Positions 10,744-24,324 of a stretch of 26,389 bases of DNA are shown here, piece by piece. The position numbers were made by a program, and so were the translations under genes. The notes under the pieces are model-generated. The model was not told the DNA's origin and made no database searches. It saw only the letters and a program-made list of their open reading frames with translations. Source of the stretch: a virus; the IMG/VR virus record IMGVR_UViG_3300017720_001038, positions 1 through 26,389 of that record; one strand, written 5' to 3'. Within the stretch, counting starts at the first letter, position 1, and each line of letters opens with the position of its first letter.

Positions 10744-10828
10744 GCCACCGTGGTGAAATTGGTAAACACAACGGACTTAAAATCCGTCGGAGTAATCCTT
10801 ACCGGTTCAAGTCCGGTCGGTGGCACCA
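10744..10828 (+). tRNA. tRNA-Leu (TAA)
   Basis: Complete class II tRNA, 85 bases with CCA encoded. Acceptor GCCACCG pairs with CGGTGGC. The D stem is GTG/CAC. The anticodon arm is ACGGA-CTTAAAA-TCCGT with anticodon TAA, reading UUA. A long variable arm follows, then T arm ACCGG-TTCAAGT-CCGGT. UUA is the dominant leucine codon in the surrounding genes. Confidence 0.97.
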
Positions 10829-10839
10829 ATCTGGAGTAT

Positions 10840-10916
10840 GGCCTCGTAGCTCAACTGGATAGAGCACCAGTCTTCTAAACTGGATGTTGCAGGTTCAAGT
10901 CCTGCCGAGGTCGCCA
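10840..10916 (+). tRNA. tRNA-Arg (TCT)
   Basis: Complete tRNA, 77 bases with CCA encoded. Acceptor GGCCTCG pairs with CGAGGTC with one G-T. D arm GCTC/GAGC; anticodon arm CCAGT-CTTCTAA-ACTGG with anticodon TCT, reading AGA/AGG; T arm GCAGG-TTCAAGT-CCTGC. AGA is by far the commonest arginine codon here. Confidence 0.97.
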
Positions 10917-10975: not shown

Positions 10976-12394
10976 ATGGCAGTTTTTACGAAGAACGATT
11001 TTATAAGAGATAATAAACCATATGCAGCCAAGAATGGTAAGTATGCTGGTAAGTCTCGTTTTGAAATTGTACAATTAATGATTAACAACAAAGAAAGATT
11101 TGTTGAAGGTAAAACATCTAGTGGTCGTAAACTAGAAGGTATCGCAATTGTATCAAAACCTAATGCTTGGCCTTGTGTTATTCAAGTCAAATCTTCTACA
11201 GGAAGTAAGATAGAAGAAATATCTCTTACACAAATTTATAAGTCACCACTATTTGGTGGTGGAGGTGGTTCAGGTGGTGGTGCAGCTGTGACCGCAATTA
11301 CTGAAAGTGGACAATGTTATTATTGTTCATTAGCATTTAATGTTAAAAAAGGTCCACTAAAGTTATCAGACATTACAGACGCCAATATGGAAAAGGCTTC
11401 TCGTTATGTACAGGCTACCGTTGCTTATACAGCATTTAAAGATAGAGTACCATCAGATTGGATTGAAAGTGGTACATTTATAAAAACAGCAAACGAAATT
11501 TATAAAAAGTATTCATCAAAGGTTACAGGTGGTGTTTACTTTCATAGAGGCAGTACTTTTATGGGTAAAGTATATGCAGCTAAAAAAGAAGTAATAAAAA
11601 TAGATAAACAAATGGCACAGAAAGATGGTAGAGCACCATTAGCACCAGGTAGTTTTTCAGATGATAAATGGAATCCAGGTGATATATGGATGACTACAAT
11701 GACACCAGGTTCGGATCCTCTTGCAATGTTTAAGCAAGATTGGGGAATACTAAATCAAGCAGTATTAGACAAAGCAGGTAGATTAAATACTCCTAGAACT
11801 TTCTTACTAGGTATCTCTCTAAAGAAATTAGGTAGTACCGTTAAGTTAGAAGAGTACAATGCTCCTGAAAGAGTGAAGTTAGTATCACACGCTTATAAGA
11901 ATTATGTATTTGGAAAAAATAACGATTTCTTTTCTTCAATTGATATGTATATGAATATGGGTAGTGCGAATGTTCAGTTTAGAGCATTTAACTCTTCTTC
12001 ATCTTGGCAAGGAGAGATAAAAGGATTGAGTGCTGCCGGTGGTAAAATCGGTGGTGGTAATTTAAATTTCTATTGTGAGAAACACATACGAAAATCTATA
12101 GGTTCACAAGGCTTATTATCTGGTTGGAAAGAAACACCAAGTAGTCAAGTCAAGTTAAATGATATGTATGTCCTATATAAGAAGTATGCGAAGAATCCAG
12201 TAGATGTTAAACCGTTTATCAAACAATGTTTAGATAAAGGTGGTAGTTTTATATTCAGTAAGAATATGTGTCTACTATTTTTAGATACTATGATGAGTGC
12301 AACATCAACACAAAGAAATAATGTATGTACGGATATTATAAAATACGCAGCTTCTAGTACTGATTTATCTTCTTTCTTTGTTAAGGTGTCATAA
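10976..12394 (+). CDS. two-domain protein with glycine linker, possible nuclease-like fold
   Basis: A 472-residue protein. Residues 1-92 form a small N-terminal domain; 94-102 are G-G-G-G-G-S-G-G-G, a flexible linker; 105-472 form a large second domain. In it D-K-W-N-P-G-D-I-W (230-238) is followed by L-L-G-I-S-L-K-K (277-284) and later W-Q-G-E-I-K-G. A D...S-x-K order of this kind resembles PD-(D/E)XK nuclease cores, but the acidic residue before the lysine is not in the classical place. I recall similar proteins in marine T4-like phages annotated only as structural or hypothetical. GGAG precedes the ATG. Function is unassigned. Confidence 0.8.
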   Translation: MAVFTKNDFIRDNKPYAAKNGKYAGKSRFEIVQLMINNKERFVEGKTSSGRKLEGIAIVSKPNAWPCVIQVKSSTGSKIEEISLTQIYKSPLFGGGGGSGGGAAVTAITESGQCYYCSLAFNVKKGPLKLSDITDANMEKASRYVQATVAYTAFKDRVPSDWIESGTFIKTANEIYKKYSSKVTGGVYFHRGSTFMGKVYAAKKEVIKIDKQMAQKDGRAPLAPGSFSDDKWNPGDIWMTTMTPGSDPLAMFKQDWGILNQAVLDKAGRLNTPRTFLLGISLKKLGSTVKLEEYNAPERVKLVSHAYKNYVFGKNNDFFSSIDMYMNMGSANVQFRAFNSSSSWQGEIKGLSAAGGKIGGGNLNFYCEKHIRKSIGSQGLLSGWKETPSSQVKLNDMYVLYKKYAKNPVDVKPFIKQCLDKGGSFIFSKNMCLLFLDTMMSATSTQRNNVCTDIIKYAASSTDLSSFFVKVS

Positions 12395-12398
12395 GACT

Positions 12399-12406
12399 TA
12401 TAAATA
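12399..12406 (+). promoter_or_regulatory. T4-type late promoter
   Basis: Exact TATAAATA, the T4 late promoter element read by the gp55 sigma with gp33 and the sliding clamp. It lies in the short gap after the 10976 gene, about 70 bases before the ATG at 12477, and would drive the enzyme block that follows. Confidence 0.8.
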
Positions 12407-12476: not shown

Positions 12477-13691
12477 ATGTTTAGTTTTAAAGGATATTCT
12501 AGCTCAGGTACGAACACACACCTTGAGCATTTAGAAGACGAAATAATTAATAACGGTGCCAAAGGCGGTAGAAACGCAATAGCGTTCTTACAATCTTTGC
12601 AGAAAATGTTAACAGGTAATGTTAGCAATAGAGTAAATGTAACCGTTAAGTGGGACGGCGCTCCTGCGATAGTATGTGGAACTAATCCTGAAAACGGCAA
12701 ATTCTTTGTCGGTACAAAATCTGTATTCAATAAAACTCCTAAAATCAATTACACTTCAGCAGACATAAGAAGAAATCACCCAGGTGGTGTTGGTGCAAAA
12801 TTAGAAGTTGCATTAAGAGAATTGAAAAAATTAGGTATAAGAGGCATTGTCCAAGGTGATTGTCTCTTTACTAATGAAGATAAGAAAGTGAATAACATTG
12901 ACGGACAATCAATGATTACCTTTACTCCTAATACTATAACATATGCTATGCCTGTTAATAGTGCTGTCGGTCGTAAGATTGCTCGTGCTAGAATGGGCAT
13001 AGTGTTTCATACTCAATATGTTGGTAATAAAATGTCAGAATTAAATGCTAACTTTGGATATGTTAGAGGAATCAGAAGTGGTAGTGTATGGGTACCAAGT
13101 GCAGAATACAAAGACGCTAGTGGTAGTGCAAGTTTCAATCGTGCTGAAGTTTCACAATTCAATGCTCAGTTAAGAATGGCACAAGGTAGTTTATCTAAAG
13201 CAGGACCTATGTTAAATCAGTTTGATAGTAGAGACGAGTTAAGTGTAGGTTTTAAAATTAAAACATATTTCAATAGTATCGTTAGAGGTACACAAGGTAT
13301 GGGTAGTGTTAAACAACTAGTAGATGGTTTTGAACCATACTATACAAGTTTCATTGACAAAGAAATAGATAATAGAAAAACAGAAAAAGGTAAAGCACCT
13401 TATATTAAAGCAAAAGCAGATAACATAAAATTTATTCAAAGAAATAAACAATCTTTATATTTCGCAATTGCAACATACATCACATTACAGAATTGCAAAA
13501 ACATTGTAGTAAGAAAAATAGCACAGATACAATCTATCGGACACTTTTTAAAAACCGATAATGGTTTTAAGGTAACATCACCTGAAGGTTATGTTGCAAC
13601 AGATAAGATTGGTAATGTAGTTAAACTTGTAGACAGATTAGAATTTAGTAGAGCAAACTTTACGATTGCAAAAGATTGGGTGAAAGGTTAG
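12477..13691 (+). CDS. DUF6267-like protein with nucleotidyltransferase/ligase motifs
   Basis: A 404-residue protein I recognise as a conserved marine T4-like phage family (DUF6267-type, from memory), opening with T-H-L-E-H-L-E-D. It shows the motif order of covalent nucleotidyltransferases (DNA/RNA ligases): K-W-D-G at 58-61 (motif I, K58 as the nucleotide-accepting lysine), G-T-K-S-V-F at 79-84, V-Q-G-D at 125-128 (motif III-like), I-V-F-H-T at 175-179, P-E-G-Y-V at 369-373 (motif IV-like) and V-V-K-L-V at 381-385 (motif V-like). Motif III has D where many ligases have E. AAGGA lies 5 bases before the ATG. It is led by a late promoter and followed by kinases. Family recognition is moderately sure; ligase activity is inference. 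Confidence 0.8.
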   Translation: MFSFKGYSSSGTNTHLEHLEDEIINNGAKGGRNAIAFLQSLQKMLTGNVSNRVNVTVKWDGAPAIVCGTNPENGKFFVGTKSVFNKTPKINYTSADIRRNHPGGVGAKLEVALRELKKLGIRGIVQGDCLFTNEDKKVNNIDGQSMITFTPNTITYAMPVNSAVGRKIARARMGIVFHTQYVGNKMSELNANFGYVRGIRSGSVWVPSAEYKDASGSASFNRAEVSQFNAQLRMAQGSLSKAGPMLNQFDSRDELSVGFKIKTYFNSIVRGTQGMGSVKQLVDGFEPYYTSFIDKEIDNRKTEKGKAPYIKAKADNIKFIQRNKQSLYFAIATYITLQNCKNIVVRKIAQIQSIGHFLKTDNGFKVTSPEGYVATDKIGNVVKLVDRLEFSRANFTIAKDWVKG

Positions 13692-13692
13692 T

Positions 13693-14292
13693 ATGGATAC
13701 ATTTAAACAATATCTATTCAATTTTTTGAACGAAGCAAAACAAACTAGAGTTATTATAATGGGTGGACCAGGAAGTGGTAAATCAACTTATAGTGAATAC
13801 ATTATAAGACACTTCGGTATCAAACATATTTACCCAGGTGGTTTATTAAGAAAAGAAATTGATAAAGGTGGTCCTGAAGGACAAAAGATTAAGAACTTAT
13901 TAGACCAAGGTAAGTTTGCACCTAACGATATAGTTTTAAAATTAGTGAAGAAAGCATTACAAGAGAAAGACGCTTCAAAAGGTTATGTGTTAGATGGTTA
14001 TCCTAGATATATGCAACAAGTAAGAGATATGGAAAAAAATGGTATCGCTTATGATGTTGTTGTATTCCTTGATGTGAGTAATGAAGAAGTTATTAGAAGA
14101 CTTACAAAGAGAGGAAGAAAAGATGATAAGCCAGATATTATTAATGATAGAATCCAGTTATACAAAAAAGAAACAGGACCTGCCATTGAACATTACAAAA
14201 AAAGACCTGGGTTTATATCTATCAAAGCTGAAGGAAAAGAACCTGGAGATATTGCGAAAGACATTATTAAGGAGATAGAAAATGCAATTTAA
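13693..14292 (+). CDS. adenylate-kinase-like nucleotide kinase with capsid-targeting-like N-terminus
   Basis: A 199-residue P-loop kinase. Walker A is G-G-P-G-S-G-K-S-T at 24-32, the NMP-binding D-G-Y-P-R-Y-M-Q-Q lies at 101-109 as in adenylate kinase (D-G-F-P-R), and R-L-T-K-R-G-R-K-D-D at 136-145 plus the later D-R...Y-K-K-E-T-G-P segment fit the arginine-rich catalytic region. The zinc/long LID insert is absent, so this is the short form. It would interconvert NMP and NDP. Residues 1-14 (M-D-T-F-K-Q-Y-L-F-N-F-L-N-E) precede the kinase fold and resemble the T4 capsid-targeting peptide ending in L-x-E. The gene overlaps mazG by 11 bases. Confidence 0.88.
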   Translation: MDTFKQYLFNFLNEAKQTRVIIMGGPGSGKSTYSEYIIRHFGIKHIYPGGLLRKEIDKGGPEGQKIKNLLDQGKFAPNDIVLKLVKKALQEKDASKGYVLDGYPRYMQQVRDMEKNGIAYDVVVFLDVSNEEVIRRLTKRGRKDDKPDIINDRIQLYKKETGPAIEHYKKRPGFISIKAEGKEPGDIAKDIIKEIENAI

Positions 14293-14599
14293 TGAATACC
14301 AAACTCTAGCTGCAAACACAGCAATTTATCCACTTGCAAGTAAGGTAACTTATCCTGCATTAGGATTATGTGGTGAAGCAGGTGAAGTCGCAGAAAAAGT
14401 TAAAAAGAATATTAGAGACGGTGCAAGTCCTACATTTAAAGAAGATATGAAAAAAGAATTAGGTGATGTGTTATGGTACATATCAGCACTTGCGAGAGAT
14501 TTAGATATTGATTTAGATACAATCGCACAATTAAATTTACAAAAATTAAAAGATAGACAAGAAAGAAACAAAATACAAGGTAGTGGAGATGACAGATAA
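14282..14599 (+). CDS. mazG: MazG-like nucleotide pyrophosphohydrolase
   Basis: A 105-residue all-alpha NTP pyrophosphohydrolase. The metal site follows the MazG pattern E-x-x-E...E-x-x-D: E35 and E38 in G-E-A-G-E-V-A-E, then E59 and D62 in K-E-L-G-D-V-L-W-Y. Single-domain phage MazG proteins are common in marine phages and hydrolyse nucleoside triphosphates, with dGTP/dCTP or alarmones proposed as targets. AAGGAGAT lies just upstream of the ATG, inside the kinase gene. It is flanked by nucleotide kinases and fits a nucleotide-pool role. Confidence 0.93.
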   Translation: MQFNEYQTLAANTAIYPLASKVTYPALGLCGEAGEVAEKVKKNIRDGASPTFKEDMKKELGDVLWYISALARDLDIDLDTIAQLNLQKLKDRQERNKIQGSGDDR

Positions 14600-14879
14600 G
14601 TATAGACCTTTACCTGATAATATAACAATAAAGTTATCGCCAATAGAAGGTTTTGGTTTATTTGCAACAGCAACAATTGATAAGATGACAGATTTAGGTA
14701 TCTCTCATTTGACTATGGGTAGAGAAATTTATAGAACACCACTTGGTGGTTTTTTAAATCATAGTGATAAACCTAATTGTCAAAAGATAGAAGTTGATGG
14801 AAAATATTATGTACAAACACTAGAAGATATAAAAGAAGGAGAAGAGTTAACTTTAAAGTATACTCTATACAAAGTATGA
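14589..14879 (+). CDS. small SET-domain protein (lysine methyltransferase-like)
   Basis: A 96-residue protein that is essentially a minimal SET domain. I-E-G-F-G-L-F-A at 19-26 is the SAM-binding start (G-x-G), F-L-N-H-S-D-K-P-N-C at 55-64 is the diagnostic N-H-S...P-N-C motif, and E-G-E-E-L-T-L-K-Y at 83-91 is the closing G-E-E-L...Y. SET proteins methylate lysines using SAM; chlorella-virus vSET shows that a domain this small can work. ATG 14589 is preferred over GTG 14583 because AAGG lies eight bases before it. It overlaps mazG and, through ATGA, the next kinase. The target is unknown. Confidence 0.85.
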   Translation: MTDKYRPLPDNITIKLSPIEGFGLFATATIDKMTDLGISHLTMGREIYRTPLGGFLNHSDKPNCQKIEVDGKYYVQTLEDIKEGEELTLKYTLYKV

Positions 14880-15550
14880 AAACTTTTAAACACATAATAC
14901 AAGAAGGCGTTTACGACCCAGGTATATTCAAAGCGTTCTTTTTAGCAGGTGGTCCTGGTTCTGGTAAGTCATATGTTACCAATAGAACAACTGCTGGTAT
15001 GGGTTTAAAATTAGTTAATTCAGATGTCAGATTTGAAATGTATTTAAAGAAGGCAGGTCTCTCATTAAAAATGCCAGATAAAGAAGCAGGTCAAAGAGAC
15101 CCATTAAGAGCGAGAGCAAAACAAATTACAGGCGACCAGATGGACTTATATATTAGAAATAGATTAGGTCTTGTCATTGACGCCACAGGTAGAGACTATG
15201 ATATTATTAATAAACAAAGAAGTATGTTAAGAATGTTAGGTTACGATACTTATATGATGTTTGTAAATACGAGTTTAGAAGTTGCATTACAAAGAAACAA
15301 AGTTAGAACTAGAACCGTGCCTGTAAATATTGCAACGAAGAGTTGGAATGTTGTACAAAGTAATATAGGTAGATTTCAAAATCTATTTGGTACTGGTAGT
15401 ATGATTGTAGTTGATAATAATAATGCAAGTGAAGATACACTTAACAAAGTTTACACACGAATTAGAGGACTCGTTAGAAAACCTGTTCAAAATTATGTCG
15501 CAAAGAAATGGATAGAACAAGAACTAGCGAAGAAAAGAAATGCCAGATAA
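14876..15550 (+). CDS. zeta-toxin/PNK-like P-loop kinase with capsid-targeting-like N-terminus
   Basis: A 224-residue kinase. Walker A is G-G-P-G-S-G-K-S at 25-32; S-D at 49-50 then R52 match the catalytic aspartate region of zeta-toxin/polynucleotide kinases; L-V-I-D-A-T-G at 99-105 is a second core strand; and R140, R144 and R146 form a lid-like basic segment. The substrate could be a nucleic acid 5' end, a sugar nucleotide or a protein. Residues 1-10 (M-K-T-F-K-H-I-I-Q-E) closely resemble the T4 internal-protein N-terminus M-K-T-Y-Q-E-F-I-A-E, including the I-x-E cleavage site. The ATG overlaps the SET stop. Confidence 0.85.
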   Translation: MKTFKHIIQEGVYDPGIFKAFFLAGGPGSGKSYVTNRTTAGMGLKLVNSDVRFEMYLKKAGLSLKMPDKEAGQRDPLRARAKQITGDQMDLYIRNRLGLVIDATGRDYDIINKQRSMLRMLGYDTYMMFVNTSLEVALQRNKVRTRTVPVNIATKSWNVVQSNIGRFQNLFGTGSMIVVDNNNASEDTLNKVYTRIRGLVRKPVQNYVAKKWIEQELAKKRNAR

Positions 15551-18464
15551 TTTTCAAAAGAAACATAGAATGGACTATGTTAAAGAACTATTAAAGAAGT
15601 GCAAGTCTGTAGCAGAAGACTTGAATGATTTAACACACCCTAAAGTTGACAACAAACCTGTACAGAATATTGTTGGTGACTGGAAAAAAATAGATGTTAA
15701 AGCACCTTCTGAAAATGATAGTCCTGAAACTAAAAGAGAATTAGAAATGATGACTGAACTATTTAAACAAAGAAATAGTGCAGTTGTAGAAAGCGTAAAG
15801 AACCACGACCAAGAAACATTTTATGGTATTGAAGCATACCTAATGAAATATAATTTAGAATATGATAAGAAAGATATATCTGAATTAAAGAAAGCAGGTA
15901 GTGGTGTAGTTAGACATTACAAAAACAAATTTCAAAGACCAAGACCATATGAACTTGCAAAAGAAATGAATATGGATTTTGATAGTATGGAATTAATTTC
16001 TGATAGTATGAAGACACCAGCATATCCATCTGGTCATAGTTTACAAAGTAGACTAATTGCAGAATACTATGGTAAATTATATCCTAAACATAAAGATAAT
16101 CTAATAGAACTTGCTGATGAATGTGGTTATGGTAGAGTTGTTGCAGGTTGGCACTATCCATCTGACCATACAATGTCTGTAAAGATTGCAGATAAGTTAA
16201 TCAATATGGTAGATATTCAGGAAAGTATTATTGACATTCCTAGAAAAACATATGCACCTGCTGTATTTGATAATGCAGATACAAATAATCCTAAAATAAA
16301 AGCAAGTGTAGTAAAACAAATACAAGACCAAATCAAAGTATTTGAAAAAGAATTTCCAGTTATTAAGTATGGTTTGATTGGTTCTATTCTAACACATAGA
16401 TATAGAAATGACGCAGACCTAGACATCAATGTATTATTTGATGTACCTGAAAGTGAAAGAGTTGCAGAAAGAGAAAGACTATCTTTACAATATCTTTCAT
16501 CAAAGAATCCAAATAACATACAAGGTAAATTAATACCTGGTACAAAACATCCTATTAACTATTATTTTGTAACCGATGAAGCAACATATAAAGACCAAGA
16601 GAAAAAAGCAGACGCAGTATTTTCAATTACAAGAAATGTATTTGTTAAAAGACCTGAAGATTTTACTTTTAATGTTGATGATTATATTGCTGACTTCAAT
16701 AAGAAAGTACAAGAAATAGATGTAGTCAAAGGTGAACTAAAAAGAGACATTGTTGACTATGACGAATTAAAAGAATTAAGTCCTGACGATATAGAAAACT
16801 TACAAGCAAGAGTAGAGAGTAAGTTAGAAGAAATAGAAACTGATATAGAGGACATAATAAAGATTGGTGACGGTGTTGACGCAGAAAGAAGAAGTGCGTT
16901 TGATACAGATATGTCGCCAGACGAAATCAGAAAGTATAGTATTAAAAACAGATTACCTAAAAATGTAATCTATAAGATGTTAGAGAAATATCATTACATT
17001 ACTTTCTTTAAGAAGTGCAAGAAGATTTTAGATGACGGTATAGTTACCGATAAAGAAATTGATAGTCTAAAAACTGAAGCAGTAGGCACACCTAAAAAAC
17101 ATATCGCATTTACATTTGGTAGATTTAATCCACCAACGATAGGCCACGAAAAGTTAATTAACAAAGTGGCGTCTGTAGGTGCTAATGATTATCTCATTGT
17201 GCCAAGTGGTTCGCAAGACCCAAAGAAAAATCCATTAAAAGTTAACGACAAGATTAGAGTTATGAAATCTATGTTTCCTAGACACGCAAGTAAGATAAAA
17301 CAAATTACTGGTGCTAGAACAGCAATTGAAGTTGTTAATAAATTAAATGGCAAAGCAAACGAAATAACAATGGTAGTTGGTTCAGATAGAGTAAGAGAAT
17401 TTGAAACACTACTAAACAAGTACAACGGTGTACAAGCAAGAGGAACAAATTACGAGTTTGATAAAATCAATATCGTATCTGCTGGCGAAAGAGACCCAGA
17501 CGCTGAAGGCGCTATGGGAATGTCAGCAAGTAAAATGAGAGCTGCGGCTCAATCTAATGACCTTAAATCTTTTAAACAAGGTCTACCTACATCTTTTAGA
17601 GATAAAGATAAACTATTTGGATTAATTAGAAAAGGAATGAACTTGGCTGCAGGTTATACTGGACCAGGTATCGGAACATATCAACCTATCGCTAGTGTTG
17701 AAAGCTTTACTAAATGGCATTTAAGAGACTTGTATATCCGTGAACAACTATTTAACATAAACGATAGTGTTGAAGACCAAGAACAAGAGATTACAGGTAA
17801 AGTAATTCGTAGAAGTACAAACTATGTTGTATTAGAAGACAATAATTCTAACTTACATAAATGTTGGATATGGAATTGTATTCCACAGACTAACATAGAT
17901 GAAACTAAATTACACGAAATTAATTTAAATGTAGACTATGGTTTTGAAGCAGTATCAGAAACGGAAGTCAAAATGAATGAAGAATATGGTAAGAAATTAC
18001 CACAAGATAAAGATGTAAAATCTAAAAAAGGTACACAACCTAAAAAGTATTACAAAGATATGAAGAAAGGTGAAAAAGAAAAAAGAGCAAAACACTTTTC
18101 TAAACAAAAATATAATAAATCAGATAATGATAAAGATTACAAAGCTGCACCAGGAGATAAAGACGCAAAGACAACTACTAGTGTACATACAAAGAAATAT
18201 CAACAAATGTATGGTAAAGAATCTTACGAGATAGGTAAAGATTATGCAGACCATACTAAAAGAGTAACCCCAGGACAGCGTGCAGAAACGAGTCCAGAGA
18301 CAATAAACCAAGAAGATATACAGAAATGGGCTTCTTCAAGTGAGACTATTGATAAATATAAGAAACGATACGGAGAAGAATATCAAGTAGAATTGAATGA
18401 CGCTGTGAAAAAAATGGAGGAGAGATTGAAAGTACAATCTTTTAAAGAATATGTTAAGATTTAG
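15540..18464 (+). CDS. PAP2 phosphatase + nucleotidyltransferase + NMNAT-like fusion
   Basis: A 974-residue multidomain enzyme. Domain 1 (about 75-225) is a PAP2/acid-phosphatase fold with all three motifs: K128-x6-R135-P136, P-S-G-H at 163-166, and R199-x5-H205-x3-D209. Domain 2 (about 255-380) is a Pol-beta-type nucleotidyltransferase with G-S at 281-282 and D-A-D-L-D at 291-295. Domain 3 (about 520-700) is an NMNAT/cytidylyltransferase fold with G-R-F-N-P-P-T-I-G-H at 527-536 and S-A-S-K-M-R at 662-667. Residues 750-782 form a small beta module (G-K-V-I-R-R...K-C-W-I-W), and the last 190 residues are lysine-rich and low in complexity. A second possible start is ATG 15570. It overlaps both neighbours. 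Substrates are unknown; nucleotide or NAD metabolism is likely. Confidence 0.88.
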   Translation: MPDNFQKKHRMDYVKELLKKCKSVAEDLNDLTHPKVDNKPVQNIVGDWKKIDVKAPSENDSPETKRELEMMTELFKQRNSAVVESVKNHDQETFYGIEAYLMKYNLEYDKKDISELKKAGSGVVRHYKNKFQRPRPYELAKEMNMDFDSMELISDSMKTPAYPSGHSLQSRLIAEYYGKLYPKHKDNLIELADECGYGRVVAGWHYPSDHTMSVKIADKLINMVDIQESIIDIPRKTYAPAVFDNADTNNPKIKASVVKQIQDQIKVFEKEFPVIKYGLIGSILTHRYRNDADLDINVLFDVPESERVAERERLSLQYLSSKNPNNIQGKLIPGTKHPINYYFVTDEATYKDQEKKADAVFSITRNVFVKRPEDFTFNVDDYIADFNKKVQEIDVVKGELKRDIVDYDELKELSPDDIENLQARVESKLEEIETDIEDIIKIGDGVDAERRSAFDTDMSPDEIRKYSIKNRLPKNVIYKMLEKYHYITFFKKCKKILDDGIVTDKEIDSLKTEAVGTPKKHIAFTFGRFNPPTIGHEKLINKVASVGANDYLIVPSGSQDPKKNPLKVNDKIRVMKSMFPRHASKIKQITGARTAIEVVNKLNGKANEITMVVGSDRVREFETLLNKYNGVQARGTNYEFDKINIVSAGERDPDAEGAMGMSASKMRAAAQSNDLKSFKQGLPTSFRDKDKLFGLIRKGMNLAAGYTGPGIGTYQPIASVESFTKWHLRDLYIREQLFNINDSVEDQEQEITGKVIRRSTNYVVLEDNNSNLHKCWIWNCIPQTNIDETKLHEINLNVDYGFEAVSETEVKMNEEYGKKLPQDKDVKSKKGTQPKKYYKDMKKGEKEKRAKHFSKQKYNKSDNDKDYKAAPGDKDAKTTTSVHTKKYQQMYGKESYEIGKDYADHTKRVTPGQRAETSPETINQEDIQKWASSSETIDKYKKRYGEEYQVELNDAVKKMEERLKVQSFKEYVKI

Positions 18465-18990
18465 TGATTATGCAGATAAGATAACGGTCTCGTTAAACTA
18501 TCATATTGAGAATAGCATACCTCTTGCTGAGAACATATATAGAGTACATAGCGAAGAGTTTTATGCCTTGTTTAGAGAAGCAAGACATATGTTTAATGAA
18601 GGTCTATTACAATGCGAAAGTGAATGGGATAGAACTTTATTAGAAACAGACATTGGAGAATTTGCTGAATATGAAGGTATGAAAGTACCTTTAGATTGTC
18701 CGATACAAGAAGAAGACGAAAAGAATCCGCCTTTAAATAAACCAAAAAAAGGTGGACCTAAAAAGTTTTATGTTTTTGTAAAGGACGGAGATAAGATTAA
18801 GAAGGTTACTTGGGGAGACACTACTGGTTTAAGAGTTAAGTTAAACGACAAACAAGCCAGAAAATCTTTTGCTGCTCGTCATAAGTGCGACCAACAAAAA
18901 GATAAAACAAGTGCTGCCTATTGGGCTTGCAACTTACCTCGTTATGCGAAGTCATTAGGACTATCGGGTGGGGGTAACTTTTACTGGTAG
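18451..18990 (+). CDS. conserved phage protein with basic Cys/Trp C-terminal domain
   Basis: A 179-residue protein in two parts. Residues 1-95 are acidic and helical, with the phrase P-L-A-E followed by N, an L-x-E prohead-protease-like site. Residues 97-179 form a conserved basic module: K-K-F-Y-V-F-V-K, W-G-D-T-T-G-L, S-F-A-A-R-H-K-C, Y-W-A-C-N-L-P-R-Y-A-K and a glycine-rich end. I recognise this module from many marine and large-virus proteins (I believe a DUF family), but its function is unknown. C-x(n)-C plus His could bind metal or nucleic acid. The gene overlaps the fusion enzyme by 14 bases. Confidence 0.82.
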   Translation: MLRFSDYADKITVSLNYHIENSIPLAENIYRVHSEEFYALFREARHMFNEGLLQCESEWDRTLLETDIGEFAEYEGMKVPLDCPIQEEDEKNPPLNKPKKGGPKKFYVFVKDGDKIKKVTWGDTTGLRVKLNDKQARKSFAARHKCDQQKDKTSAAYWACNLPRYAKSLGLSGGGNFYW

Positions 18991-18999
18991 GAGTTGACA

Positions 19000-19275
19000 A
19001 TGGAATTTTATGATGAAAGACCGGACGAAACAAAAACGGACGATTTCTTTCAACGGAGTTTCGGACAAGACGCCAAAGAAGAGAATTTAGTTTGGCACCG
19101 AGATAGACGAAATAGAACGATAAGAATTATTGCAGGAGTTAATTGGAAATTACAAATGGATAATAAACTCCCAGTCATTATGAAAGTAGGAGATGTTTTT
19201 GATATACCAAAGGAAACATTTCATAGAGTACACAAAGGTGAAGGTAGACTAATTATAGAAATAAAGGAATTTTAG
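19000..19275 (+). CDS. small cupin-like protein
   Basis: The start is ATG 19000, six bases after TAGGAG; an in-frame TTG at 18994 is less likely. The product has 91 residues. The second half is a single beta-barrel cupin pattern: W-H-R-D at 32-35, then I-R-I-I-A-G, M-K-V-G-D-V-F-D-I-P at 61-70, and T-F-H-R-V at 73-77, where H75 is a likely metal ligand together with H33. The role is unknown; small cupins of this kind recur in marine phages. It lies 14 bases before the large structural-type gene. Confidence 0.75.
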   Translation: MEFYDERPDETKTDDFFQRSFGQDAKEENLVWHRDRRNRTIRIIAGVNWKLQMDNKLPVIMKVGDVFDIPKETFHRVHKGEGRLIIEIKEF

Positions 19276-19289
19276 GAGAGAAATATAAG

Positions 19290-21254
19290 ATGACAAGATA
19301 TACACAAACAATGAGAGAAGCACTAGAAGAGGTGTGGGCAAACGATATTCAGATTGACGAAGGCAAGATGAAGACTATTGCTACTCTTTTTGACCAAGGT
19401 AAATCAGCTGAAGACATTGCAAAACAAATGAAGTTGCCTGTTGCAACCGTTAAAACTATTCTAGGTGAAGAAGACATCAAGGAAGAACAACTGGTTGAAT
19501 TTACAGACCAACAAATCAAAAAGTTAAAAGCAGAATATGCTAGTCTTGCAGGTAAGAGAATATCTATCGCAAGAGCAAATCAGTTAAGAAACATCTTTGA
19601 CAAAATTGCAGACGCACAACTTCCTAAACTCTTCAAAGCAGACATTCCTTTTATTTCAGCAATGGCAGTTAGTCGTATGATACAAAAAGGTATCAAAGTA
19701 CCTAAAGGTGTAAAACTTTCAGCATTTGAAAACAAATCTTGGGACCAAGTTATTTTAGAATATACTGATTATGTAGAGTATATGGCAAAGAACGGTGGTG
19801 AAGCAAGTAAGATTGCAAATATGTTTAAAGGTAAAACAGGTGGTGGAGAAATTTCTAAATCTGGTTCAGAAGTTAGAATTGATAGTGCAAAAGATGTAGA
19901 AGCAATCCATAAAAAAGTAATGGATAACTTCCCAGACACTAGAATACTAACTAAAGAAGAAGACGAATTAAACGAAGGTACAGGAACTATTAAAGGTTTC
20001 ACAAATGAAAAAGAGAAATCAAATATGGTTTCACTTGCAAAACAACACGGATTAAAAGTATCAGATGTACCTGGTGGTATTGAACTAAAAGGTAATATGA
20101 GAAAAATTTTAGATATGCAATTAGCAACTAGGTCTCACTTAAAGACTGAAAGTAAAATTGAAGAGGCAGTACTTGCTGGTAGAGATTACAAATATACTGG
20201 TAAAGGTCCTGTTGAAATCAGTAAAGCAAATTTCAAAAAGATTAATAAAGATTATAAGAAGACTACACCAGGACAAGAAATGATGGTAGTACTAGACCCA
20301 AAAACACACGGTACGGTATTAGCACCAGTTAAGTTTACAGAAGAAACAGAAAATGGTGAAGTTGAATCTGGTAAGATTAAGTTTAAAGACTTGAAGAAAG
20401 AGAAGAAAGATGAACCTAAAGTTGATGTAGACGCTCTTAAAGACCAGATACATATGTTAAAAACAAAATTAGAAAACGAAAAGAATAAAGCAATCAAACC
20501 AGAACCAAATCCTGATACAGGAGAAGTTCCATTACAAGTTGGATTAGCACAAAAGATATTAAGAGATAAACAAAAGAAAAATGTAAAAGAAGAAGTTATT
20601 TCAGAAGCTACATTTACTTCACAACAAATCAAAATGGCATATGGCGTTGCAAACGATAAGAGATATAAAGGTGGCGATATGACAGGTGCCATTAAGGCAA
20701 TTGAAAAAATCGCAAAAGGTTTATCTGACCATCCAGATGTTCAAAAAGTATTACAAAGAACTAACGAAGGCTTTGCTTCAGACGCACAAAGAAAAGCTGC
20801 TTTCGCAAATGGATATAAAGAACCAAAGAATAAAGAGAAAAAAGAAGATACTGATATGACTAAAGGTCAAATCAAACAAGTACATAAAATGGCTGATGAA
20901 TTACCGAAGAAGAAATTTAAAGACGCTTACGGTAAGAAAGGCGATAGTGTTAGATACGGAACTGCTACTAATATGGTTAAGAAGAAACTTAACATTGAAA
21001 ACAAAAATCATCCTGCAAAAGAAATGTATGAAGCAATTGAAGGATTAAAAAACAAAGCAGAAAAATCTGGAATGCCATATGGTATTCTAAAGAAAGTATA
21101 CGATAGAGGAATGGCTGCCTGGAAAGGTGGACATAGACCTGGGGCTAGTCAACACCAATGGGCGTTTGCTAGAGTAAATTCATTTATAACTAAATCAAGT
21201 GGAACTTGGGGTGGGGCAGACAAAGACCTTGCCGCTAAAGTAAAAGGAAGCTAA
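19290..21254 (+). CDS. large modular phage protein with HTH-like and DUF5824-like domains
   Basis: A 654-residue, lysine- and glutamate-rich protein. In order: an N-terminal helix (1-16); a helix-turn-helix-like segment at 28-60 (T-I-A-T-L-F-D-Q-G-K-S-A-E-D-I-A); a helical module at 70-135; beta/alpha segments at 230-350; a probable coiled coil around 385-410; an I-S-E/A site at 437-440 followed by a module with G-F-A-S-D-A-Q-R-K-A-A-F; and a C-terminal domain at 586-654 with H-R-P-G, Q-W-A-F-A-R-V and G-T-W-G, which I recognise as DUF5824-like. Such mosaics occur in marine T4-like phages, often labelled structural. AGGAGAG precedes the ATG. A virion or core role is likely but unproven. Confidence 0.8.
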   Translation: MTRYTQTMREALEEVWANDIQIDEGKMKTIATLFDQGKSAEDIAKQMKLPVATVKTILGEEDIKEEQLVEFTDQQIKKLKAEYASLAGKRISIARANQLRNIFDKIADAQLPKLFKADIPFISAMAVSRMIQKGIKVPKGVKLSAFENKSWDQVILEYTDYVEYMAKNGGEASKIANMFKGKTGGGEISKSGSEVRIDSAKDVEAIHKKVMDNFPDTRILTKEEDELNEGTGTIKGFTNEKEKSNMVSLAKQHGLKVSDVPGGIELKGNMRKILDMQLATRSHLKTESKIEEAVLAGRDYKYTGKGPVEISKANFKKINKDYKKTTPGQEMMVVLDPKTHGTVLAPVKFTEETENGEVESGKIKFKDLKKEKKDEPKVDVDALKDQIHMLKTKLENEKNKAIKPEPNPDTGEVPLQVGLAQKILRDKQKKNVKEEVISEATFTSQQIKMAYGVANDKRYKGGDMTGAIKAIEKIAKGLSDHPDVQKVLQRTNEGFASDAQRKAAFANGYKEPKNKEKKEDTDMTKGQIKQVHKMADELPKKKFKDAYGKKGDSVRYGTATNMVKKKLNIENKNHPAKEMYEAIEGLKNKAEKSGMPYGILKKVYDRGMAAWKGGHRPGASQHQWAFARVNSFITKSSGTWGGADKDLAAKVKGS

Positions 21255-21255
21255 T

Positions 21256-21576
21256 ATGTCATATTTAAAAAGTAAACCTGGTTCAGTTGAAGAAGCGATA
21301 ACAGCTGCAGTAATGCAAGAGAAGTTATCTCCGAAACAACAAAAATTAGATAAGAACAATAACGGTAAGATTGATGGTTCTGACCTTGCAAAATTAAGAG
21401 CAAAGAAAGAAGATAACACAAATAAAGATATGTCCGGAGATACGGTTCTACCTAAATCACAAGAACCTAAAGACCCTATGAACATCAAGTCAAAAGAACC
21501 TGAAAAGAAAACTACATTAAACGCAAGTAAATCAGACAAGATTGATGTTAATCCTAAGATAGATTATACAACATAA
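21256..21576 (+). CDS. EF-hand calcium-binding protein
   Basis: A 106-residue protein with one canonical EF-hand loop at 32-43: D-K-N-N-N-G-K-I-D-G-S-D, matching D-x-N-x-N-G-x-I-D-x-x-D. It is preceded by L-S-P-K-Q-Q-K-L and followed by L-A-K-L-R, as in the single EF-hand/dockerin-like half motif. The C-terminal 55 residues are polar, P/K/D-rich and probably disordered. GGAAG lies before the ATG, one base after the previous stop. Calcium could stabilise a virion part; a partner dockerin-type binding role is also possible. No strong terminator follows. Confidence 0.8.
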   Translation: MSYLKSKPGSVEEAITAAVMQEKLSPKQQKLDKNNNGKIDGSDLAKLRAKKEDNTNKDMSGDTVLPKSQEPKDPMNIKSKEPEKKTTLNASKSDKIDVNPKIDYTT

Positions 21577-21583
21577 TTACATC

Positions 21584-21661
21584 TTTTTGCTCATTTTGTG
21601 CTTGACAAAGCTATAGAAATGTGTTAATATAAAGCATAATGAAAAAAGGATATAAAACACT
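21584..21661 (+). repeat. promoter-leader module, copy B
   Basis: Second copy of the module described at 10373: TTTTTGCTC at 21584-21592, nine bases, TTGACA, CTAT, TGTGTTA, CATAAT, ATGAAA, AAGGATATA. It leads the HAD nucleotidase gene. Confidence 0.75.
21602..21630 (+). promoter_or_regulatory. sigma-70-type promoter for HAD nucleotidase
   Basis: TTGACA at 21602-21607, 17 bp, TAATAT at 21625-21630, in an intergenic gap. Predicted start near 21637. AAGGA then precedes the ATG at 21662. It is an early-type promoter placed between late genes. Confidence 0.78.
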
Positions 21662-22258
21662 ATGAAATTCAAAGAACTCCGAAGTGATGTTGTACATCAA
21701 GTCAAAAAACTATCATTAAAAAACGAAGCATTTAGACAAGACAATAAGAAGTTGCCTCGTATCTATTGTGATATGGACGGAGTCCTATGTAATTTTGAAC
21801 AAGCTGCACAAAAGGCAGTTAAAATGCCTCTATCACAATGGGCATTAGAACCTAGAAAGAAATTTAAAACAATAAGAGATAAGTGGCAACCAATAATGCA
21901 GACTAAAAATTTCTGGTCTACATTACCTTGGAATCCAGGTGGTCAAAGACTTTGGTCTTTCATATCAAAGTATGACCCACATATCTTATCTGCTTATGTA
22001 GAACAGACTTCGGATCCTAGTTGTATTCCTGGCAAATCAAAATGGGCTAGAACAAAATTAGGTATGTCCGGTAGTAAAGTGAATTTAGTAAAACGAAGAG
22101 AAAAACAGAATTTTGCTAAAGTTGGTGGTATGCCAACAATTCTAATTGACGACTATATTAAAAACATCAATCAGTTTAGAGCAAGAGGTGGTATAGGTAT
22201 TCATCATACTAGTACTGCTAAAACGATTTCTGAATTGAAGAAACTTGGTTTTAAATAG
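21662..22258 (+). CDS. HAD-family 5'(3')-deoxyribonucleotidase-like protein
   Basis: A 198-residue HAD phosphatase. The nucleophile motif is Y-C-D-M-D-G-V-L at 35-42 (D37 nucleophile, D39 acid/base). F-W-S-T-L-P-W-N follows, as in NT5C-type nucleotidases (substrate-binding region), and the metal site is I-L-I-D-D-Y at 160-165. It would remove phosphate from dNMPs or a related nucleotide. The N-terminal M-K-F-K-E-L-R is an extension of about 30 residues ahead of the fold. It has its own early-type promoter, unlike its neighbours, which argues that it also acts early, for example in nucleotide salvage. Confidence 0.85.
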   Translation: MKFKELRSDVVHQVKKLSLKNEAFRQDNKKLPRIYCDMDGVLCNFEQAAQKAVKMPLSQWALEPRKKFKTIRDKWQPIMQTKNFWSTLPWNPGGQRLWSFISKYDPHILSAYVEQTSDPSCIPGKSKWARTKLGMSGSKVNLVKRREKQNFAKVGGMPTILIDDYIKNINQFRARGGIGIHHTSTAKTISELKKLGFK

Positions 22259-22265
22259 TCAATCT

Positions 22266-22273
22266 TATAAATA
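22266..22273 (+). promoter_or_regulatory. T4-type late promoter
   Basis: Exact TATAAATA, 48 bases before the ATG at 22321 with GGAGAG in the leader. It drives the Ig-like structural gene. Confidence 0.82.
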
Positions 22274-22320
22274 TAAAAGATTAATCATTAAGTTAACTTA
22301 AATTAATAAGGAGAGATACT

Positions 22321-22899
22321 ATGAGTTTATGGGGATCAAGCTCCAGTGATGAAAGTAAACCTAAAAATCTTACTACAACTGAAAAAGCAGAAGTTTTTGC
22401 TAATGAAAAAGGTTGGGTTGTAAGAGCAGGGTCTGCTAGAACTGGAAACGGAAATACTTCCGCTACTCCTGAAGTACTAGTCGCAATTGGTGGATTAGCA
22501 ACAGCATTAGCTGCCGCTACAATTTCATCAACTGAATGGGATATATCAGAATTTGATGTATCTGCTGGTGGTACTTTATCGGTAACGGTAAACTATAACG
22601 AACAAATAACGGTTGCAGGTTCGCCTACAATCGCAGTAACCAACTCACAAGCAGGTGGTGGTTCAGCTGCGTCATTAACATTGACGAAATCGGCTGCAAC
22701 TGCTAACACGGTAACATTTACATTAGTTGTAGGTGCAGGTGGTTCAACTATTAGTGCAGATGATGTACTATCTATTGCGGCTCAGAATGTCGCTTTAGCA
22801 GGTGGAACTATTACTGATACGGTTGCTTCAAGTGCTGCTGCTGTCGCTATATCAGCTGCTGCTGGTTCTGGCGCAGGAACAATTACTGCTGTTGCGTAA
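22321..22899 (+). CDS. virion structural protein with Ig-like domain
   Basis: A 192-residue, A/T/S/G-rich protein. Residues 1-60 begin S-L-W-G-S-S-S-S-D and include a hydrophobic A/L stretch. Residues 75-165 resemble a bacterial Ig-like (SwmB-type) beta-sandwich: S-V-T-V-N-Y-N-E-Q-I-T-V, then S-P-T-I-A-V-T, then D-D-V-L-S-I-A-A. The tail is alanine-rich. This composition suits a head-decoration, fibre or other exposed virion protein. It is a single-gene late unit: TATAAATA upstream and a terminator directly downstream, which fits high expression. Confidence 0.75.
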   Translation: MSLWGSSSSDESKPKNLTTTEKAEVFANEKGWVVRAGSARTGNGNTSATPEVLVAIGGLATALAAATISSTEWDISEFDVSAGGTLSVTVNYNEQITVAGSPTIAVTNSQAGGGSAASLTLTKSAATANTVTFTLVVGAGGSTISADDVLSIAAQNVALAGGTITDTVASSAAAVAISAAAGSGAGTITAVA

Positions 22900-22932
22900 T
22901 AGATAATAAGAACAATAAAATTAACAATATTA

Positions 22933-22958
22933 GGGGATCCTTTGTGGTCCCCTTTTTT
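22933..22958 (+). terminator. rho-independent terminator
   Basis: Stem GGGGATC (22933-22939) pairs with GGTCCCC (22946-22952) with one T-G pair, a six-base loop, then six T (22953-22958). It ends the 22321 unit. Confidence 0.88.
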
Positions 22959-22963
22959 ATTTG

Positions 22964-22971
22964 TATAAATA
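22964..22971 (+). promoter_or_regulatory. T4-type late promoter
   Basis: Exact TATAAATA five bases after the terminator T-run. The leader of about 60 bases to the ATG at 23040 contains a small hairpin, GCGTA (22983-22987) with TACGC (22995-22999), and a GGAG ribosome site. Confidence 0.85.
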
Positions 22972-23039
22972 GTATTAATGGTGCGTATATGATGTACGCA
23001 GTAGTTTACCACAATTAGTGGAATTATAGGAGAACAAAA

Positions 23040-23489
23040 ATGGCAGACAAGAAAATTACAGCCCTAGATAACCTAGGCACATCATTGGCAGTAGAGGATT
23101 TATTTCATATTGTTGATGACCCTTCAAATACACCAATTAATAAAAAGGTAACAGCGAAAGATGTTTTTAATAACATCCCAACTTTTATCGGATTGACATC
23201 AACTAGTGAAGCATTAACTTCTACTAGTACAGCGATTAACACAACATCAGCAATTACAGAAGTAGACCAATCTGGCGGTGCAACAGCACTTTCAATGGCA
23301 GATGGTACTAACGGAATGATTAAAACAATTATTGCAGTAGGTACTGGTGGTAACGCCATCACTATTACACCAGATAATTTAAGAGGATATTCAACTATCT
23401 CTTTAGATGGTGAAGGTGAAACGGTAACTTGTTTATTTAAAAATTCTAAATGGAATGTAATTGCACATAATGGTGCTACACTCGCATAA
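23040..23489 (+). CDS. phage structural protein
   Basis: A 149-residue virion-type protein. The N-terminus M-A-D-K-K-I-T-A-L...L-F-H-I-V-D-D is the common opening of phage fibre, collar or head-fibre proteins, followed by N-K-K-V-T-A-K-D-V-F. The C-terminal half is beta-rich and T/S/G-rich (N-A-I-T-I-T-P, T-I-S-L-D-G-E-G-E-T-V-T) and ends W-N-V-I-A-H-N-G, as in small trimeric beta-structures. First gene after a terminator and a late promoter; GGAG precedes the ATG. The exact position in the particle is not known. Confidence 0.78.
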   Translation: MADKKITALDNLGTSLAVEDLFHIVDDPSNTPINKKVTAKDVFNNIPTFIGLTSTSEALTSTSTAINTTSAITEVDQSGGATALSMADGTNGMIKTIIAVGTGGNAITITPDNLRGYSTISLDGEGETVTCLFKNSKWNVIAHNGATLA

Positions 23490-23516
23490 TATTAATTAAT
23501 TTGAGGAGAAATAATT

Positions 23517-23759
23517 ATGGCTATATCACTTGGCGTAGTTGAGAAAGAATATAATCAACTATTTAAAGAAAGAGAAACACTAACTGAAAGTGTTAACAAA
23601 CTAGAGAATGAACTAGCAAGTACAAAGTCTCGTTTAAATGCTTTGCACGGTGCAGTACAAGTACTAGAAAAGTTAATGCGAAAAGCAGATAGCGATTTGA
23701 CATTAAGAGAAGCAGAAAAAGAGTTAACACCCGCTGTAGAGGAACAACCAAATGGATAA
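23517..23759 (+). CDS. small coiled-coil protein
   Basis: An 80-residue protein. Residues 8-60 are a continuous heptad coiled coil (Y-N-Q-L-F-K-E-R-E-T-L, then V-N-K-L-E-N-E-L), and the last 20 residues are charged and P/E-rich. GAGGAG precedes the ATG. It probably oligomerises; a virion chaperone or scaffold role is possible. The next small gene starts inside its stop region (ATGGATAA). Confidence 0.75.
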   Translation: MAISLGVVEKEYNQLFKERETLTESVNKLENELASTKSRLNALHGAVQVLEKLMRKADSDLTLREAEKELTPAVEEQPNG

Positions 23760-23901
23760 AATAACTGAAAAGTCAAATACTTTACAAGAGATTTTAACGG
23801 TTAACCCAAACGAGGTTAATACTGAAAATGACCTTAATGAATTTGAAGAAGATTTAGTACCTGGTACTAAAAAAGATAATAAAAAAGAAAAAGAGGAATA
23901 A
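23752..23901 (+). CDS. 49-aa acidic/charged protein
   Basis: An ORF of 49 residues overlapping the coiled-coil gene by 8 bases, with its stop directly abutting the next ATG (TAAATG). The N-terminal half is M-D-K-I-T-E-K-S-N-T-L-Q-E-I-L; the middle is acidic (N-E-F-E-E-D-L) and the end is lysine-rich (K-K-D-N-K-K-E-K-E-E). It fills the gap between two genes exactly, and L-Q-E-I-L offers a L-x-E site. It could be a small scaffold or internal peptide. No family is recognised. Confidence 0.6.
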   Translation: MDKITEKSNTLQEILTVNPNEVNTENDLNEFEEDLVPGTKKDNKKEKEE

Positions 23902-24324
23902 ATGAAAACTTTTAAAGAACACATAAAAGAAGACAAGATGGTCGGAACAGCTACATCAAATGCTGCTGAAGATAGTAATATCGGTACAGCAAATTTGAAA
24001 GACCCTAATGTACTTAAAAGAGTTAACGCATTTGTTGGTTCGGTTGCAGATATGGAATATATCAAACCACAACAAGCAGTTGATTCATTAAGAGAAAAGT
24101 TAATGAGAATTGGTTTAGACATTTCACCTATGAAATTAGAAGGTGACGCTGGAACGGTATCTGGTGAAGTAAAACAATTCGGTGGTACATACGGTAAAAC
24201 AACTGAAACGAAACCTGAAGATGTAGTAGTAGATAATGGTCCTGGTATTGATAACTTAAAATTAGAAGTTAAGTACGAAACATTGTCTAACGGTTCATCA
24301 AAGGTTTACGCTAAATTAAAATAG
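23902..24324 (+). CDS. internal virion-type protein with capsid-targeting-like N-terminus
   Basis: A 140-residue protein beginning M-K-T-F-K-E-H-I-K-E followed by D, like the T4 capsid-targeting peptide with an I-x-E cleavage site. Then comes an N-V-L-K-R-V-N-A-F-V-G segment, a helix A-V-D-S-L-R-E-K-L, and a beta-rich end with F-G-G-T-Y-G-K and L-K-L-E-V-K-Y-E. I recall this family in marine T4-like phages near structural genes, with unknown function. It is late, and a capsid-internal protein is the best guess. Confidence 0.78.
   Translation: MKTFKEHIKEDKMVGTATSNAAEDSNIGTANLKDPNVLKRVNAFVGSVADMEYIKPQQAVDSLREKLMRIGLDISPMKLEGDAGTVSGEVKQFGGTYGKTTETKPEDVVVDNGPGIDNLKLEVKYETLSNGSSKVYAKLK

Follow-up and report, generated by a model that had tools for sequence, protein, structure and literature searches.

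Among the closest described systems is the capsid-targeting sequence (CTS) of phage T4. In the internal protein IPIII, according to a review (PMC9026906), residues 4 and 7 are the main determinants of targeting and residues 8 and 10 those of processing, and targeting and cutting are separable. Here we analyse a 26,389-base fragment of a pelagimyophage-like virus (IMG/VR record IMGVR_UViG_3300017720_001038, hereafter the window), whose closest named relative is HTVC008M. The initial annotation had proposed that three of its products begin with such a peptide, i.e., an adenylate kinase, a P-loop kinase resembling polynucleotide kinase (PNK) and zeta toxin (below, the zeta-like kinase), and a small protein encoded at 23902. 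Sequence comparison confirmed the three N-termini as predicted T4-type capsid-targeting peptides that are conserved in homologues. We consider it very probable that these proteins carry a T4-type CTS and that, with it, they are packaged late, cut by a protease of the gp21 type, and delivered.

The three N-termini lie on the + strand, exactly where they had been placed. The product of the gene at 13693 starts with MDTFKQYLFNFLNE (13693-13734), with F at residue 4, Y at residue 7, and L-N-E at residues 12-14; the cut is predicted after E14. What follows (13735-14292) is the mature adenylate kinase, which matches PF00406 (8.7e-41, residues 22-171, an ADK domain with its P-loop) and whose best relatives in the PDB are of the AK1 type. 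When the product is aligned with E. coli Adk (1ake), its residue 19 pairs with residue 2 of the latter, and the domain is aligned from about residues 14-20. The zeta-like kinase starts with MKTFKHIIQE (14876-14905; F4, I7, I-Q-E at 8-10, predicted cut after E10). Its mature part (14906-15550) matches AAA_33 and Zeta_toxin; zeta toxin 1gvn was found by profile (4.7e-6), the C. thermocellum PNK (CthPnkp) is the best relative by Foldseek, and adenylate kinases score alike. In the AlphaFold model of this product, residues 1-9 have a predicted local distance difference test (pLDDT) score below 50, and the confident fold begins around residue 10, directly behind the E. The proposal that I/L-x-E comes just before the folded domain holds for the adenylate kinase by alignment and for the zeta-like kinase by the pLDDT of its model. 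The third peptide, MKTFKEHIKE (23902-23931; F4, H7, I-K-E at 8-10), precedes a mature part (23932-24324) that gave no match in family searches.

The initial annotation had looked to the homologues for a decision, and there the peptide is kept. We took homologues from viral contigs and counted distinct N-termini for the 31 genes of the window, 2 of which had no usable N-terminus. The motif F/Y/L..hh.E is found in 45 of the 63 distinct N-termini of the adenylate kinase, zeta-like kinase, and 23902 families, versus 4 of the 218 from 25 other families; the DUF6267 family, whose window member is described below, was counted apart (5/11). Likewise, [IL]xE occurs within residues 5-20 in 55/63 N-termini of the three families, 6/11 of DUF6267, and 35/218 of the other 25 families. 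Letters and lengths drift while the pattern stays. Indeed, adenylate kinase homologues begin with MDTFKQYLFNFLNE, MVQTFVNFLKE, MKTFRNFYEQQLLE, or MKSFIEYINKFLEE, and those of the zeta-like kinase with MKTFKHIIQE, MKNLKEVQAFLNE, MKTFAELQE, MIPFILKE, or MKKFSQFISEHEEFSIQDILNE. [IL]xE is kept in all 13 distinct adenylate kinase N-termini, and the motif in 28 of the 29 distinct N-termini of the 23902 family. Homologues of the zeta-like kinase and of the 23902 product are present in HTVC008M and Melnitz-2; no adenylate kinase homologue was found among HTVC008M, Melnitz-2, and the other genomes of the whole-genome motif count.

The same peptide was then sought on unrelated enzymes of related phages, a check suggested by the initial annotation; it gave 120 proteins in 27 groups, some of them by chance. 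The allowed residues differ slightly among the motifs used for whole genomes, homologues, the two kinds of neighbourhood, and phage S-CREM2. Around the zeta-like kinase, the motif was met at a start-zone ATG in 56/850 genes (30 distinct) versus 6/3,587 internal ATGs. Around DUF6267, with a slightly wider motif that allows L at residue 4, it was met in 104/730 distinct genes versus 7/3,989 internal ATGs, genes being here compared with ATGs. UvsX accounts for 14 of these 104 matches, treated as false positives; it was dropped before grouping, which reduced 134 rows to the 120 proteins from both neighbourhood sets. These proteins, grouped by first domain, comprise kinases, DUF6267, cytidylyltransferase, nucleotidyltransferase, phrog_7595, nucleotidase-like proteins, small unknown families, and singletons. 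Some singletons among the 27 groups are probably due to chance, and the adenylate and zeta-like kinases are merged via their P-loops. A position profile, which presupposes F/Y at residue 4 alone, in contigs related to the window, agrees one by one with the targeting and processing positions of T4 (4, 7, 8, 10). Start-zone ATGs (n=322) have F/Y/H at residue 7 in 42.5%, I/L at 8 in 36.3%, and E at 10 in 32.6%, versus 11.2%, 8.8%, and 4.1% for internal ATGs (n=365). The whole-genome motif count was rejected as evidence, because the loose motif in T4-like genomes is little above internal ATGs and controls (for example, 2/180 genes in HTVC008M, 3/146 in T5); the signal is a local one, seen at the cargo block. 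Two tagged proteins (L026:5909-6445 and L337:3148) contain FFHGTHKRNLEFIEKNG or VFHATDHAGLGRL and on visual inspection resemble ADP-ribosyltransferases, the class to which T4 Alt belongs; the former gave no Pfam or PHROG match.

A peptide of this kind calls for a cognate protease. Peptidase_S77 (gp21) was found in 12/17 records, i.e., in 10/10 named T4-like or T4-related phages, 2/3 virus contigs, and 0/4 non-T4 controls. It is present in HTVC008M, Melnitz-2, and the contigs G001 and G002, and was not found in the fragment G003. The capsid proteins point the same way. At the position aligned to L-T-E|A of T4, which we take to be the region where the T4 capsid protein is cut, HTVC008M has L-G-E, Melnitz L-S-E, S-SM1 L-T-E, S-PM2 and KVP40 L-N-E, and Atu_ph07 L-M-E. 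This alignment was made without Syn9, whose capsid protein was not among the predicted open reading frames (ORFs). A Syn9 ORF at 154429 of DQ149023 does have a 27-residue match to residues 49-75 of the S-SM1 capsid protein, the cut-site region (E 5e-6).

Published virion data from relatives were compared with the peptide. For S-CREM2, whose virion proteome is in print in full (PMC10665884), the proteins of Table 3 were matched to the annotated genome. The strict form of the tag is carried by 4/28 detected non-structural or hypothetical proteins, 0/24 structural proteins, and 1/167 undetected ones (one-sided Fisher P 0.0016). In other words, 4 of the 5 strict-tag gene products are in the virion proteome, versus 48 of the 214 others, and the lone tagged product that went undetected is a 55-residue ORF. 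The four are an S-adenosylmethionine (SAM) hydrolase (MKDFDSFLEE), gp13 (MKDLHSFLTE), an APH/ChoK-like kinase (MKRFDAFLTE), and a cytidylyltransferase (MKNFSSFLTE). Near misses are gp15 (MNFSEFNE) and gp136 (MQTFSMFFSE), and in the virion-borne Cas9 (L342:7704-10313) a stretch resembling the tag, LRFASFMAE, occupies residues 17-25, not the very start. The virions of S-SM1 contain the cytidylyltransferase T4-GC190 (PMC3037559), which begins with MKKFSAFLNE; the tagged cytidylyltransferase of S-SZBM1 (MRFRQFIIE) is among 30 virion proteins; and the NMNAT of S-SCSM1, a virion protein (PMC9602691), begins with MKSFLQFLKE. Hence, the N-termini of the cytidylyltransferase/NMNAT virion proteins of these four phages are tagged in 4/4 cases (S-CBWM1 left out). 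The DUF6267 neighbour of S-SZBM1 is untagged (MAKNTHLEH, 397 residues), and the virion list has no entry of that length. In S-SCSM1, the two genes that precede the NMNAT are annotated as virion proteins; one of them, SSCSM1_90, is a homologue of the window product 10976-12394 (29% over 390 columns, E 1.7e-31), whose own start, MAVFTKNDFI, is without a clear tag. In Atu_ph07, gp53 (AUZ94865, counted from gp1 = AUZ94813) has a zeta-like kinase domain after V-T-E. It lies within the CDS 31-76 cluster, 29 products of which are in virions, possibly including gp53. Shortly upstream of gp53, seven head-to-tail genes of 759-804 bases each (L154:322-5756) possibly arose by tandem duplication.

Cargo may also be made as polyproteins. 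The contigs L026, L028 (where the gene is truncated as the contig ends), L030, and L031 each encode a protein of 1,100-1,300 residues that combines cytidylyltransferase, basic, 25277-like, DUF5824-like, kinase, and phrog_7595-like parts. Phage C48C1 encodes the basic, DUF5824, and phrog_7595 parts separately, and each of these products opens with a tag of its own (MLSFKQFVSE, MITFKKYLEE, and MKKFKQYIDE); its DUF6267 gene is tagged as well (MMLDFKNFITE), and its cytidylyltransferase, as annotated, is untagged. L026 has FEMFLEE at 221, FEAYLNE at 354, FEAFITE at 553, and FESYLEE at 843, and separate homologous genes start aligning at 232, 360, 564, and 841, i.e., within about 12 residues of each motif. 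These 4 motifs compare with 0.084 expected (0/5,000 shuffles), and the 3 motifs of L030 with 0.097 (P 0.0002). In the window, the multidomain protein 15540-18464 (+; PAP2, weak NTP_transf_2, and cytidylyltransferase matches) has a junction, ...NMVDIQE|SIIDIPRK, between its PAP2-like and nucleotidyltransferase-like domains, and 7 homologues are separate genes that start with MRFKDFIKE or close variants right before SIIDIPR. For the I-Q-E at this junction (16215-16223, +; residues 226-228), all 16 distinct aligned segments have the E, 11 of them as [ILM]xE and 1 as VxE. It is a predicted cut site and the best internal site found in the window, one that the first reading of the sequence had overlooked. 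The two further sites named at that time, by contrast, were downgraded. L-A-E in the phrog_7595 protein (18523-18531, +) is conserved in part only, with [ILM]xE in 5/14 distinct aligned segments and E in 8/14, and I-S-E in the DUF5824 multidomain protein 19290-21254 (+; candidate site at 20598-20606, +) with [ILM]xE in 4/13 and V.E in 2 more. The start of the latter protein, MTRYxxTMxE, was left as weak (E at the residue-10 place in 6/9 distinct aligned segments), and 25277 was rejected as a tag site, since its nearest homologues have V-W-E, not L-x-E. Another natural fusion within the cargo block is seen in some pelagimyophages (L045:4181-6595, L047, and L066), where the zeta-like kinase is fused in frame to a downstream part (805 residues to the locus end).

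DUF6267 homologues make up 34 of the 120 tagged proteins, in a family whose function is unknown in Pfam; our literature search found no paper with DUF6267 or PF19782. K58-W-D-G61, E370-G-x-V373, and K383 are invariant in the 36 rows aligned, out of 52 intended (16 were dropped, and the last codon was trimmed in 4). We take K-x-D-G and the further motifs to be ligase nucleotidyltransferase motifs. A profile search of the PDB gave no convincing match, and Foldseek with the model gave none at E <= 0.001: adhesins and carbonic anhydrases come first (best E 7.5e-3), and a DNA ligase stands at rank 28 (E 0.18). With VIA-align, each of the 50 rows among the matches listed is an RNA or DNA ligase; the Naegleria RNA ligase comes first (Z 8.5, root-mean-square deviation 3.8, 181 aligned), and T4 Rnl1 (7.4) and Rnl2 (6.8) are present as well. 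Because of this result and of the motifs, a fold like that of RNA/DNA ligases is a strong lead for the modelled protein; it is a lead only, because a Z of such size can reflect a common arrangement. The window member (12477-13691, +) starts with MFSFKGYSSSG. Since F4 and Y7 are kept and the cut site is absent, by the rules of T4 it might be packaged uncut. The phrog_7595 protein (18451-18990, +) starts likewise with MLRFSDYADK, with F4 and Y7 and no 8/10 site, and the two may form a class of targeted, uncut cargo.

The gene order of HTVC008M (DNA polymerase, UvsX, helicase, DUF6267, zeta-like kinase, cytidylyltransferase) resembles that of the window. TATAAAT, which we presume to be a motif like the T4 late promoter, stands in the gaps upstream of 10976, 12477, 22321, and 23040; the copy at 12399-12405 (+) lies in the gap upstream of the gene run 12477-18990. 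Four of the 5 plus-strand copies are intergenic, versus 1/10 on the minus strand, in gaps that make up 4% of the sequence (binomial P 1.3e-5, AT bias ignored). The overall number of copies does not exceed chance, and the AT richness of the gaps weakens this P value. The elements may point to late synthesis of the cargo. Immediately upstream of the late block are the tRNA genes Leu(taa) and Arg(tct) (10744-10916).

Put together, these data would fit the following course. The tagged precursors would be made late and dock on the prohead scaffold via the peptide, and the S77 prohead protease, the gp21 homologue, would cleave them after I/L-x-E. The freed adenylate kinase, zeta-like kinase, and 23902 protein would stay with the DNA in the head and accompany it into the next cell. 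They would belong to a wider tagged set in marine T4-like phages, with the ligase-like DUF6267, an NMNAT-like cytidylyltransferase, a nucleotidyltransferase, a nucleotidase, and others. Such cargo would be synthesised one protein at a time or, in certain phages, within polyproteins that have CTS-like sites close to the domain junctions. We infer the docking and the release by the protease from analogy with T4 and from the virion data of relatives, and we likewise infer that the two kinases of the window would be packaged, cut, and injected. As for their role, our guess is that they serve nucleic-acid end repair and the supply of nucleotides and nicotinamide adenine dinucleotide (NAD) at the start of infection. 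More broadly, and as a tentative idea that may well prove wrong, the heads of marine T4-like phages could be preloaded with an end-repair and cofactor kit (DUF6267, PNK-like kinase, adenylate kinase, NMNAT-like enzyme) through a shared CTS, in some lineages as a polyprotein diced in the capsid by the prohead protease, and the kit would mend broken host or phage RNA and DNA from the onset of infection.

Several facts weigh against delivery of tagged cargo. The virion data cover neither the phage of the window, nor HTVC008M, nor any homologue of the two kinases. No S77 protease match was found within the window; its own protease and scaffold are unseen because it is a 26-kb fragment. In the adenylate kinase, the cut site is displaced to residues 12-14. 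Virions also contain untagged proteins: T4-GC15 of S-SM1, a 457-residue neighbour in S-SZBM1 (matched by length), and 24 of the 28 S-CREM2 virion proteins without a structural name, which have no strict tag. The loose [ILM]xE separates S-CREM2 virion proteins weakly (9/28 versus 25/167 undetected, P 0.031, and 5/24 structural). The accessible passages on the 14 virion proteins of S-CREM1 name no such enzyme, and the authors of two cyanophage virion papers consider that such enzymes may be lysate carry-over; the tag speaks for packaging over carry-over of these enzymes. Among the polyproteins, L028 has 1 motif (P 0.064), not significant by count alone. Finally, a CTS-like start can be innocent, because UvsX has one.

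Could the likeness be fortuitous, F, K, and E being common in AT-rich phage proteins? The CTS-like start of UvsX, and a looser motif not clearly in excess over whole T4-like genomes, are what such an explanation would lead one to expect. It does not account for a start rate far above that of internal ATGs in the cargo neighbourhood, for the position-specific profile, or for the recurrence of the motif on 27 groups, and we regard it as very improbable. It is also quite unlikely, in our opinion, that the kinases are ordinary auxiliary metabolic enzymes acting late in the infected cell, with a peptide that is a leftover or has another role. The nucleotide-supply role of an adenylate kinase is obvious, and a pelagimyophage adk has been published as an auxiliary metabolic gene (PMC7029224). 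Against this reading stand the [IL]xE kept in 13/13 distinct adenylate kinase N-termini despite their drift, the same pattern on many unrelated proteins, and the S-CREM2 virion data.

Alternatively, the peptide may target the head or scaffold, with proteins that remain uncut or act as assembly factors and are not delivered for action in the next cell. The separability of the two functions in T4, as the review has it, and the DUF6267 and 18451 products of the window, which keep the aromatics at 4 and 7 without the 8/10 site, would suit this possibility. On the other hand, the three proteins keep I/L-x-E at the edge of a fold or domain, and cutting is favoured because the junction sites of the polyproteins make most sense if cut; we therefore hold it to be unlikely. 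A T4-like capsid-targeting role, as the initial annotation had it, is supported by the matched T4 positions (PMC9026906), the S77 protease of relatives, the L-x-E of their capsid proteins, the S-CREM2 virions, and the finding of the same peptide on unrelated proteins of related phages.

This reading, if right, would provide a readable signal of which proteins may be brought into cells by the T4-like phages that abound in the ocean. It would recast an "auxiliary metabolic" kinase as a predicted effector that is injected, it bears on the doubt between packaging and carry-over raised by the two cyanophage virion papers, and it suggests that tailed phages may use polyproteins residing in the capsid. 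The principle is known in kind from the T4 CTS; the cargo, its breadth, and the polyprotein form are new as far as the literature searched shows, and a search made mostly on listings turned up no paper linking a CTS with enzymes of cyanophages or pelagiphages.

Other known systems share some of these features. Polyvalent proteins (PMC5512222) and P1 DarB (PMC9024508) are multidomain too, packaging and injection have been proposed for them, and DarB has an N-terminal capsid signal for head targeting. Some polyvalent proteins are linked to embedded peptidases, whereas the sites described here fit the prohead protease; the word "cyanophage" has 0 occurrences in the text of PMC5512222. In SPN3US and phiKZ, the prohead protease likewise cuts propeptides after x-x-E, although these propeptides are mostly longer, with A-x-E in SPN3US. 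The enzymes of S-SM1, S-CREM2, S-SCSM1, and S-SZBM1 are present in purified virions, with tags on the cytidylyltransferases of all four and on the SAM hydrolase and APH/ChoK-like kinase of S-CREM2. In contrast, the accessible texts of these papers do not name a packaging signal, and the adenylate and zeta-like kinase families are not among the enzymes that they name. The T4 CTS of IPI-III and Alt, cut by gp21, shares the N-terminal peptide of about 10 residues, with an aromatic or hydrophobic residue at positions 4 and 7, I/L at 8, and E at 10, as well as the cognate S77 protease, here found in relatives; K at residue 2 (47/73) and S/T at residue 3 (37/73) are also common, although the motif requires neither. 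The difference lies in the cargo, which in marine T4-like phages would include nucleotide and nucleic-acid enzymes, encoded as single genes and as polyproteins.

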